Positions 1,462 to 4,762 of a DNA stretch of 64,000 bases are shown here, in pieces. The number at the start of each line of letters is the position of its first letter. Position 1 is the first letter of the stretch. The notes beneath the pieces were generated by a model. That model worked only from the letters and a program-made list of their open reading frames with translations, made no database searches and was not told the DNA's origin. Made by a program: the position numbers and the translations under genes. The DNA comes from Fidelibacterota bacterium (GTDB lineage: Bacteria > Fidelibacterota > Marinisomatia > SCGC-AAA003-L08 > TS1B11): the NCBI GenBank assembly GCA_020354025.1, contig CP070638.1:719999-783998 (forward strand), in the 5' to 3' direction.

Positions 1462-2511
1462 TTAAATGGGATGCAGGCCGGGGAAAAGCAGCCCCGTGGT
1501 CTCATCCCAGCCCATCATGACATTCAGTGACTGGATCGCGCTCCCCGCCGCGCCTTTCATCAAGTTGTCAAGGGCTGCGATTACCACCACATGACGCGGG
1601 GAGCCCTCGACATCCACCTCAAATCCCACGTCACAGAAGTTGCTGCCAGCCAGGACCTTGGGCTCGGGATAGCGATGGATACCGGTCCTCTGCTTCACCA
1701 GCCTGATGAAGGCCTCTTCACTATAAGCGTTGCGATACAGCTGCCATATCGACTTTTCATCGACGGATTCATTTAAAAAACAGTGGGCCGTAGCCAGCGC
1801 ACCCCGGACCAGTTCCACAGACGTAACGGAGAAGTGGAGCTCGAAGTAATCCCCCAGGGCTTGCATGACCTCGGCCTGATGTCGGTGCCCGGTGGGTTTG
1901 AAAGACCGCACGGCTCCGCTGCGCTCAGGATGGTGAGAACCGACGTTGGGCTTCGCACCCCCTTCCGAGGAACCGACTTTGATATCAGCCACTACCCGCT
2001 CCAGCATCCCGGAACGCGCCAGGGGTGCCAGAGCAAGATTAGCTACAGTAGCGTTGCAGCCTACGCCTGACACATAGCGAGCCCGGGCAAGTTTCTCCCG
2101 GTACAGCTCGGGCAGCCCGTACATAAATTTCCCCAGCCATTCCGGAGCCGGGTGCTCCTCATGGTACCATTTCCGATAGTCAGCAGGATTATCCAGGCGA
2201 AAGTCGCTGGAGCAGTCGATGATTTTGGGAGCAATTGCCTTGTAGCGGTCGATATCACGAGCCGCCTCGCCGTGCGACAGGCACAGGAACAGAATATCGC
2301 AGGGAGCCAGGTCGTCGGGGTGGGAAAACTTCAGCTCTGTCACTCCGCGGAGATTGGGATGGGGTGTGTAGACGTATTTCCCGGGCAGGCGTCTTGAAAT
2401 CACCTGGGCCAGGCGCAGCCGCGGGTGGGAAAGTGCCAACCGGAGCAGCTCCCCCCCCGTATAGCCACTACCCCCTACGATGGAAATTTGAACCAACTCA
2501 GACATGCTCAT
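1462..2511 (-). CDS. lysY: [LysW]-aminoadipyl/glutamyl phosphate reductase
   Basis: NADPH-dependent semialdehyde dehydrogenase of 349 residues, ArgC/LysY family, which reduces the LysW-bound acyl phosphate to the semialdehyde. The N-terminal Rossmann motif [13 protein letters not shown] is at about residues 13-25, and the catalytic cysteine is in VSGVGCNAT (Cys152). Later conserved stretches include [17 protein letters not shown] and [14 protein letters not shown]. It overlaps the end of lysX by 14 bases and abuts lysZ. The start is ambiguous between two ATGs two codons apart (2511 or 2505). ArgC proper is the alternative; its place behind lysX argues for LysY. Confidence 0.92.
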
Positions 2512-3358
2512 CCCGCTTCCCGGCAGTCACCCGTATAAAATAGTCAACAATAGCACCCGGGATATCCACGCCGGTGATGTCGATGCTATTGCGGAACTCC
2601 ATGGTGTAATTCACCTCGTTTGCCAGCAGCTGACCATCCCGAGTTTCCAACAGGTCCACGGCCACAATCCCACCACCTACGGCCTCAGCTGCTGCCAGTG
2701 ATAAAGCATTGATCTCGGATGTTACCGGGCAGTTTTCCACCCGTCCTCCCCGGGCGGTGTTGGTAATCCAGTGGTCCGAGTGGCGGTAAATGGCAGCCAC
2801 GGTTTCATCCCCTACGACGAAGGACCGAATGTCACGGGCCGGTTTATCAATATATTCCTGGATATAGAAAATGGAGTGATGATAACTCCCCAGGACCTCC
2901 TTGTGTTCAAGGATTGTTTCAGCTGCATCTCGATCATTCACTTTCGAAAGCAGCCGACCCCAGGAACCCACCGCCGGCTTAAGAACCACTGGATAGCCAA
3001 GCTCTTCAATTGCCTCTAAGGCCGATTCCGGTGTGAAGGCCACCCTACATCGGGGAACCGGCACACCATTCCGAACAAGAGCCGACGTTGTTTCCAGTTT
3101 GTTTCCACAAACCAGTGCCACTTCGTAGCAGTTGACAGTGGGTATGCCCCAGTCACTGAAAATGCGGAGGGCATATAGAGCCCTAGAGTGGTTGATGCAG
3201 CGTTCGAGGATGCCGTGAAATCCCTGCCAGTTCCGCTCCTGCAGATTGAACACGATCTGGCGGTCATCGATTATTTCCACTGGGGTTCGGCGGGACTTGA
3301 ATGCCGCCAGCAACAGCTTCTCTTCCACTCGAACCCTTGATAAAAGTATGCCAAGCAT
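2498..3358 (-). CDS. lysX: LysW-aminoadipate (or glutamate) ligase, ATP-grasp
   Basis: ATP-grasp ligase of 286 residues, RimK/LysX type, which joins the amino group of alpha-aminoadipate (LysX) or glutamate (ArgX) to the C-terminal glutamate of LysW. Visible family elements are the N-terminal [29 protein letters not shown] (ATP loop), [20 protein letters not shown], and [15 protein letters not shown] with the metal-binding Glu and Asn. It starts 32 bases after lysW and overlaps lysY. Whether the substrate is aminoadipate or glutamate cannot be settled by eye. Confidence 0.93.
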
Positions 3359-3390: not shown

Positions 3391-3570
3391 CTACTCCCCC
3401 CAGTCTTCTTCTTCTTCCGGAGCCGGGGCAACCTCTAAAGGTTCAATGTTGATCACTTCAAGTTCCATGCCACAATCGCCGCACTGAAGGATCTCTCCCT
3501 TTACAGTATCAGCGGCTACGGCAATCTCATATCCGCATTCCGGGCATGGACTTTGTTGACTTTTGCTCAT
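3391..3570 (-). CDS. lysW: LysW amino-group carrier protein
   Basis: Small acidic carrier of 59 residues. Its C-terminal glutamate side chain carries the pathway intermediates and protects their amino group. It has two CxxC pairs for zinc (CPEC at residues 9-12 and CGDC at 30-33) and ends in EDWGE, the signature tail of the family. The start ATG at 3570 has a purine-rich Shine-Dalgarno (AAGGAGAATGGAAG) just upstream. It is the first structural gene of the operon, preceded by the attenuator described separately, and is followed by lysX after 32 bases. Confidence 0.96.
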
Positions 3571-3666
3571 CTTCCATTCTCCTTCAGGTCAGTGTTTCAG
3601 CGTATCTCAGCTGCCTACAACCAAGACAGACTTCCAGGCATGAGACAGCCAATCTGTTTCAGACAG

Positions 3667-3700
3667 AAAAGCAAAAGGCCCTCGAGAAATTCGGGGGCCT
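3667..3700 (-). terminator. Intrinsic terminator inside the lysW leader (attenuator, arms 3:4)
   Basis: On the minus strand the transcript reads AGGCCCCCGA, loop AUUUC, UCGAGGGCCU: nine base pairs with one internal C-A mismatch. UUUUGCUUUU follows directly, as in a Rho-independent terminator. It lies about 100 bases upstream of the lysW start and 30 bases downstream of a short Lys-containing leader ORF. It would therefore stop transcription before the operon unless arm 3 is captured by arm 2. Confidence 0.75.
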
Positions 3701-3761
3701 GGTGCAATTCTTCTGGATTTTGAGACGGACTACACGACAATGACCCCCGGACAACTCCGGG
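3691..3761 (-). promoter_or_regulatory. Pause hairpin (1:2) and antiterminator pairing (2:3) of the lys attenuator
   Basis: Arm 1 (CCCGGA, 3756-3761) and arm 2 (UCCGGG, 3746-3751) form a 6 bp hairpin with a GUUG loop inside the leader-peptide coding sequence. Arm 2 extended (CGGGGGUC, 3742-3749) can instead pair over 8 bp with GGCCCCCG of arm 3 (3692-3699), which destroys the terminator. Arm 1 plus two bases (AAGGCCC) could also pair with GGGCCUU of arm 4. The pairings are read directly from the sequence; the switching mechanism is inferred by analogy with trp/his-type attenuators. Confidence 0.7.
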
Positions 3762-3801
3762 CCTTAGCCTTCATGTCAGCCTTGTTAACCATTATGAACA
3801 T
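3730..3801 (-). CDS. Lys-containing leader peptide of the lysWXYZJ attenuator
   Basis: ORF of 23 codons reading MFIMVNKADMKAKARSCPGV then IVV and stop. Lys codons are at positions 7, 11 and 13, with an Arg codon at 15. Lys13 sits two bases before arm 1 of the hairpin, so a ribosome stalled there would mask arm 1. The stop codon lies about ten bases past arm 2, so a ribosome finishing the peptide would mask arm 2 and favour the terminator. The ATG is only about three bases after the predicted transcription start, so it would be translated leaderless or nearly so. An internal ATG at codon 4 is the alternative start. No database family is expected for such a peptide. Confidence 0.65.
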   Translation of the reverse strand: MFIMVNKADMKAKARSCPGVIVV

Positions 3802-3811
3802 GGTAAGACAA

Positions 3812-3839
3812 ATTATACCAGGTATCATCTTAAATGCAA
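3812..3839 (-). promoter_or_regulatory. Sigma-70-type promoter of the lys operon
   Basis: On the minus strand a TTGCAT -35 box (3834-3839) and a perfect TATAAT -10 box (3812-3817) are separated by 16 bases. The expected start is the A at about 3804, which places the leader-peptide ATG (3801) almost at the 5' end and gives a leader of about 235 bases before lysW. It faces away from the minus-strand DUF1080 gene's end at 3908. Confidence 0.75.
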
Positions 3840-3907
3840 ATGTATTTTATATGTGCAGGATATTTACCTCTCAATAAAGGGAGTACCATCCCGCTCGTAA
3901 ATCATGC

Positions 3908-4762
3908 TTACCGCGATTGCAGCACACGGATTTTTATATTGCGATACCAGACCGCATCGCCATGATCCTGCAGGATAATGTGTCCCTTCCTTTTATCGGC
4001 AAAACCGGGAATGTTGCGATACTTGCTGGCGGCAAGCAACGAATCCATGAGGGGTGTGCCTAGATCAAAGTCTACGACTTTAGTGCCATTGAGCCAATGC
4101 TCACCGTGGTTGCCCTGAAAAACTATGCGTGCCTGGTTAAACTCCCCGACAGGCTGCAGCTGCTTGTTCTGCGGGGCGATCAGATCATACAAACCACCTG
4201 ATTCGTGGTCCTTGTCCATGGCATCTGGATGCTGGCTGTCATCAAGAACCTGGTACTCGAAACCAAGGGCCGAATGAGATGAGCCCTCTGATATCGACAG
4301 CTCCTCGGACACGTTATACTTAACGCCGCTATTCCCGCCCGGACTGATCCGCCACTCGAATGACAGCTCGAAGTTCTCAAAGGAGTCGATGGTCATGAGG
4401 TCGCCGCCGTTGAGCGGCTGCCCATCGGCCTGCTTTGGCACTTCCTCGCTGGCTACCTTCATGATGCAGCCGTCTTCGATGAGCCAGTGCCCCGGCGGTA
4501 CCACATCCCTGCCCAGACCCCGCCACCCGGTGAAGGTCTTGCCATCAAAGAGCAGTTGAAGGCCTGCCACCCTTTCCGCTTCGGTGAGCGTATTGGCCGG
4601 CGCGACGGCCGGTGCCGGCGGCTGGGTAGTCTCCTCAAACGCCCCGGCCTTCTCAGTTGAGGCACAGGATAGAACAGTCAGCATCAGCAGAAATGTGACT
4701 GAGACCGAGATGAGTCTGCGTCTTGCAGCTATGGCAAGCTTGACAAGTATGCTATTCGGCAT
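3908..4762 (-). CDS. DUF1080 (3-keto-disaccharide hydrolase domain) lipoprotein
   Basis: Exported lipoprotein of 284 residues. The N-terminus is basic and hydrophobic and ends in a lipobox, VLSC, followed by a Pro/Ala-rich linker. The rest (about residues 60-280) is one DUF1080 jelly-roll domain: LLFDGKTFTGWRG near its start, FENFELSFEWRISPGGNSGVK in the middle, and a HIILQDHGDAVWYRNIKIR tail. Family members act on glycosides and 3-keto-sugars. The frame is open from a TTG at 4777, but the ATG at 4762 has GGAGG eight bases upstream and is the better start. It stands alone upstream of the sugar cluster on the opposite strand. Confidence 0.82.
   Translation of the reverse strand: MPNSILVKLAIAARRRLISVSVTFLLMLTVLSCASTEKAGAFEETTQPPAPAVAPANTLTEAERVAGLQLLFDGKTFTGWRGLGRDVVPPGHWLIEDGCIMKVASEEVPKQADGQPLNGGDLMTIDSFENFELSFEWRISPGGNSGVKYNVSEELSISEGSSHSALGFEYQVLDDSQHPDAMDKDHESGGLYDLIAPQNKQLQPVGEFNQARIVFQGNHGEHWLNGTKVVDFDLGTPLMDSLLAASKYRNIPGFADKRKGHIILQDHGDAVWYRNIKIRVLQSR

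Follow-up and report, generated by a model that had tools for sequence, protein, structure and literature searches.

The LysW-pathway operon of this Fidelibacterota bacterium is very probably controlled by a classical ribosome-mediated transcription attenuator, a leader that reads the supply of charged tRNA-Lys. We located it in a 64,000-nucleotide stretch of the genome (the window), where all its elements lie on the minus strand between positions 3840 and 3666, ahead of lysW. A first-pass annotation of the same DNA, made from the letters alone, had already read the region as an attenuator, and this reading is supported by the comparison of leaders in other genomes and by a computed switch at Lys11 and Lys13. 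The attenuator looks real because the same kind of switch precedes the operon in unrelated bacteria. As a piece of anatomy, lysine attenuation is well supported here; the corresponding response would be read-through when lysine is short.

A sigma-70-like promoter (3812 to 3840, minus strand), which is a consensus match only, is predicted to drive the leader. It consists of TTGCAT (3839-3834), a 16 nt spacer and TATAAT (3817-3812); the promoter scan itself returned TTTGCA-17-TATAAT with an extended TG. From the position of these boxes, transcription is expected to start at about 3805. The leader ORF (3730 to 3801, minus strand) encodes MFIMVNKADMKAKARSCPGVIVV in 23 codons, from the ATG at 3801 to the TAG at 3730, and carries lysine at codons 7, 11 and 13, all of them AAG. 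These codons span the control region (3763 to 3783, minus strand), with Lys7 at 3783-3781, Lys11 at 3771-3769 and Lys13 at 3765-3763. No Shine–Dalgarno sequence precedes the window leader ORF, and its expected 5' UTR is about 4 nt long. The leader ORFs of two other loci, L041 and L095, likewise have no Shine–Dalgarno sequence. Since in all three cases the AUG also lies only about 0–4 nt from the expected transcription start, these ORFs are probably translated as leaderless messages.

Past the control codons, the RNA contains four arms. Arm 1 (CCCGG, 3757 to 3761, minus strand) starts at the second base past the Lys13 codon and forms 5 bp with CCGGG (3750-3746) around the loop AGUUGU. Arm 2 (CGGGGGTC, RNA CGGGGGUC; 3742 to 3749, minus strand) can instead form the antiterminator, an 8 bp pairing with one G-U, with GGCCCCCG (3699-3692) of arm 3. 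Arm 3 (AGGCCCCCG; 3692 to 3700, minus strand) is also the 5' arm of the terminator, and arm 4 (CGAGGGCCT, RNA CGAGGGCCU; 3676 to 3684, minus strand) is its 3' arm. Together with an interrupted U-run (UUUUGCUUUU, DNA TTTTGCTTTT; 3666 to 3675, minus strand), these two arms place an intrinsic terminator (3700-3676 plus the U-run) between the leader ORF and lysW. The first-pass annotation had listed the TTGCAT-16-TATAAT promoter, the 23-codon ORF with three AAG lysine codons, a 1:2 hairpin beginning two bases past the last of them (arm 1 indeed begins at 3761) and the alternative 2:3 pairing of 8 bp, and all of these are present. The terminator it described is also there, but its ‘9 bp’ amount to 8 bp plus one C-A mismatch (-14.2 kcal/mol) and its T-run is interrupted. 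Both defects hide it from a strict consensus scan for terminators, whereas a scan with one mismatch allowed picks it up.

To follow the switch along the leader, we placed the A site of the ribosome on one codon after another, masked 13 nt downstream as the ribosome footprint and folded the RNA that was left free. As long as arm 4 has not been transcribed, arm 3 has a 0.87 probability of being sequestered when the ribosome is at Lys11, Lys13 or codon 14. This value drops to 0.56 at Arg15 and 0.27 at codon 16, and reaches 0.11 at the stop. In the equilibrium fold, which includes arm 4, the terminator scores 0.22 with the ribosome at Lys13 and 0.68 once it has reached Arg15 or a later codon. Antiterminator and terminator are mutually exclusive in these folds, the former being exposed with the ribosome at Lys13 and lost with the ribosome at the stop. 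The computed folds therefore predict antitermination when the ribosome stalls at Lys11 or Lys13 and termination when it reaches the stop, in agreement with the geometry first proposed for the leader (a stall at Lys13 frees arm 2 for arm 3; a ribosome at the stop permits the terminator). Lys7 is probably not a control codon, as arm 1 stays free when the ribosome is there. When all leaders were folded at equilibrium, the result was informative for the window leader and for two from Gemmatimonadota, but for most others it told us nothing, as the completed terminator always prevailed. For this reason, folding before arm 4 is made was used for the comparisons below.

In the cell, these elements would work as follows. 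Transcription would begin near 3805, and ribosomes would start on the first AUG of the leader ORF, very close to the 5' end of the RNA. With plentiful lysyl-tRNA, the ribosome would reach the UAG and cover arm 2, allowing the 3:4 terminator to form before lysW. With scarce lysyl-tRNA, it would stall at Lys11 or Lys13 and cover arm 1; arm 2 would then capture arm 3, and RNA polymerase would read through into lysWXYZJK.

The genes downstream, all on the minus strand, are those of the LysW pathway, as the first-pass annotation had proposed. The first structural gene is lysW (carrier protein; 3391 to 3570), with the Shine–Dalgarno sequence AAGGAG and a match to NCBIfam TIGR01206 of 56.3 bits (cut-off 53.2). 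It is followed by lysX (ATP-grasp ligase; 2498 to 3358), which has a LysX-type motif and scores 332 bits with TIGR02144 and 309 bits with T. thermophilus LysX (3vpd), by lysY/argC (reductase; 1462 to 2511; TIGR01850, 352.5 bits) and by lysZ ([LysW]-aminoadipate kinase; 639 to 1505; NF010659, 415.6 bits). Next come lysJ and lysK, just beyond the window (seen in L032), giving the operon order lysW-lysX-lysY-lysZ-lysJ-lysK. LysX, LysZ and LysK exceed the cut-offs of lysine-type models.

The further label ‘lysine cluster’ is uncertain, as no homocitrate synthase is recognisable in the window genome, a single contig of 95% completeness. Its TIGR02146 matches are LeuA and CimA only, and both belong to the leu operon. 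A homocitrate synthase, or a candidate for one, adjoins the cluster in G006, G010, G007, G087, G187 and G082; the candidates of the same-family genomes G006, G010 and G007 score below the curated cut-off. Without a recognisable homocitrate synthase in the window genome, the operon might make ornithine/arginine, and its product may thus be lysine, ornithine/arginine or both. The same genome has lysA and argH, its only argC is lysY, and searches of it found neither argJ nor a standard dapB. No ilv/leu leader was found upstream of its ilvB. Separately, a secretion-type C-terminal tail in the window organism gave a weak match to T9SS models, in line with a host that probably belongs to the FCB group.

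LysX-level matches occur in 13 of 245 genomes of the phylum. The first-pass annotation had suggested comparing the leaders upstream of lysW in related genomes, and this comparison largely bears the attenuator out: of 11 other genomes of the phylum with readable sequence at this position, 10 have the same design ahead of lysW, in different sequences (the same-genus G002 reads N there and is outside this count). In G006, G010, G187, G082, G130 and G148, a Lys or Lys+Arg leader and a terminator stand just before lysW in clusters with a single LysX. Their leader peptides are MLVTIYKSKQSAKAKKLGTARNPRAAVL (G006 and G010), MKIFTLITEPKKAKKAKKGYFQ (G187), MKLFTSKSNDKKAKKAGSP (G130), a peptide ending in KKQYKAKAKDKTTYPGFGALY (G082) and MNYKTDKSTLIKNIKRRKTFNKKWYL (G148). 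In G042, G087, G111 and G112, a Lys or Lys+Arg leader and a terminator precede lysW in clusters with two ligases. The G006 and G010 leaders are nearly identical; the others cannot be aligned as DNA, so what is conserved is the design. In each relative's leader, the computed sequestration of arm 3 collapses a few codons past the last control codon. The exception is G007, a genome of the same family, where neither a Lys leader nor a terminator precedes lysW. This genome (L004/L138) nonetheless carries the full cluster and a candidate homocitrate synthase.

Outside the phylum, the same design appears in Gemmatimonadota (L041, and more weakly L036), KSB1 (L079) and Chloroflexota (L069 and others). 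To count such cases, we used a detector with three requirements: a terminator must precede the gene by no more than 160 nt, an ORF must have the same amino acid three or more times within 8 codons, and the computed sequestration must be lost on the way from that control codon to the stop. This detector scores lysine in 13 of 78 lysW upstream regions and every other amino acid in 0 to 3 of the same regions. The majority of the 78, mainly from Chloroflexota, give no match, and since most Chloroflexota lysW regions yield nothing by this test, the trait is patchy. The cluster itself has likely moved by horizontal transfer, judging from the LysX sequences: besides its presence in only 13 of the 245 genomes, the window LysX is closer to proteins of Chloroflexota, Planctomycetota and Gemmatimonadota MAGs (69–76% identical; L033-L041) than to those of most of its own phylum (48–63%; 83% in G002 and 78% in G007).

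Two variants of the design were found. The first concerns the LysW clusters with two ATP-grasp ligases, namely G042 (L005/L121), G087 (L113) and G112/G111 (L114/L115). The motif of the second ligase, EFKGSM/EFKESL, is nearer to that of Sulfolobus ArgX (NELNDVPEFKGFM) than to that of LysX, and argG and argH adjoin the clusters of G042 and G111/G112. The leaders of these clusters mix Arg and Lys codons, with RRAKR (G042) and RRAK (G087) at the computed switch. This suggests, in a sample of three lineages, that dual-ligase leaders sense both amino acids. G148 has one ligase, yet its leader contains Arg codons too. In the second variant, Lys leader and terminator occur twice, as two complete units one after the other ahead of lysW. 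It is seen in L052, L054, L058 and L100 (all Chloroflexota) and more weakly in L060; each unit has its own computed switch at Lys codons. It is conceivable, and we propose it tentatively, that the LysW clusters of many phyla share attenuators through repeated origin or fast turnover, with control codons that track the amino acids made by the cluster: Lys for lysine, Arg and Lys where there is an ArgX-like second ligase (G042, G087, G111/G112), and two units in series in some Chloroflexota. If this is true, a single leader peptide reads two tRNAs for a pathway with a shared carrier.

Several observations count against an attenuator: the terminator is imperfect, the 1:2 hairpin has only 5 bp, the ORF has no Shine–Dalgarno sequence, G007 is without a leader, most of the 78 lysW regions give no match, and the operon of a genome with no recognisable homocitrate synthase may have a product other than lysine. 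One could picture an unregulated terminator, either constitutive or marking a 3' end, next to a chance ORF. Terminators do occur between genes, and lysine richness alone is not rare (P ~0.06 for at least three Lys in 22 codons; ~0.002 for three within 7). The lysine count by itself is weak evidence; the strength lies in the combination of elements and in their recurrence. In particular, dinucleotide shuffles of the window upstream region never produced a Lys ORF with antiterminator and terminator (0 of 3000), pooled shuffles gave none either (0 of 1580), and the Lys design appeared at 1 of 644 other gene starts. That single match, in L095, precedes a lysX, leaving 0 of 643, whereas the design recurs before lysW; a chance ORF is thus very improbable. 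(In L095, positions 3623-4050, the Lys leader and terminator stand directly ahead of lysX, with no lysW before it.) A ligand-binding leader in place of a translated one is more improbable still. Lysine riboswitches and T-boxes both control lysine genes elsewhere, but here the leader ORF and three short arms account for the region. An Rfam scan of the window for the lysine riboswitch (RF00168) or a T-box returned two tRNAs only, matching the earlier remark that no lysine riboswitch is present. A further option is that lysW is controlled not through termination but at the level of its translation, with reinitiation or a masked ribosome-binding site as the means. Leader ORFs can act by reinitiation in other bacteria (PMC4833913), but here about 160 nt separate the leader stop from the lysW start downstream, with the terminator in between, and we give this explanation very little credence.

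A more serious contender is that the attenuator senses arginine besides lysine, which we nevertheless regard as unlikely. Arg15 (CGG), the last basic codon, is also close to the switch point, and ornithine for arginine could be what the operon makes: no homocitrate synthase is recognisable, argH is present and the sole argC is lysY. Moreover, Arg and Lys codons do sit together at the switch in those relatives that carry the extra ArgX-like ligase. Against this, a stall at Arg15 frees only part of arm 2 (0.56, compared with 0.87 at the Lys codons), the leader has one Arg codon to three Lys codons, and the window LysX carries a LysX-type motif. An attenuator reading charged tRNA-Lys remains our preferred reading.

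This kind of attenuator is already known. In J Biol Chem in 2005, Tsubouchi and co-workers reportedly described leader-peptide attenuation of the lysine (aminoadipate) cluster in Thermus thermophilus. That system and the window leader both have a short ORF containing Lys codons, RNA that can fold in alternative ways before LysW-pathway genes, and a proposed response to lysine. They differ in phylum and in arrangement, the window leader being directly upstream of lysW and lysX in a lysWXYZJK operon; and whereas the Thermus-type host uses the aminoadipate pathway, the window genome has no homocitrate synthase that we could recognise. The trp/his/leu/thr-type attenuators of Proteobacteria have the same four arms, with an antiterminator 2:3, a terminator 3:4 and a stalled ribosome covering arm 1. 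Compared with these, the window leader has Lys codons, a weak 1:2 hairpin, no Shine–Dalgarno sequence and an ORF nearly at the expected 5' end. The lysine riboswitch RF00168, which has no match in the window, also controls lysine genes, by a different mechanism. A literature search that covered few subscription papers returned no report of a LysW leader peptide outside Thermus, including for this group, nor of tandem or Arg+Lys leaders.

What is added here is a wider taxonomic reach and two variants. The window leader brings in a lineage in which amino acid attenuation has been little described. Judged from sequence, Thermus is not alone in having Lys attenuation of its LysW cluster, which recurs in several phyla. 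Which codons the leaders contain offers a handle on what a LysW cluster makes (lysine, ornithine/arginine or both) in uncultured bacteria.
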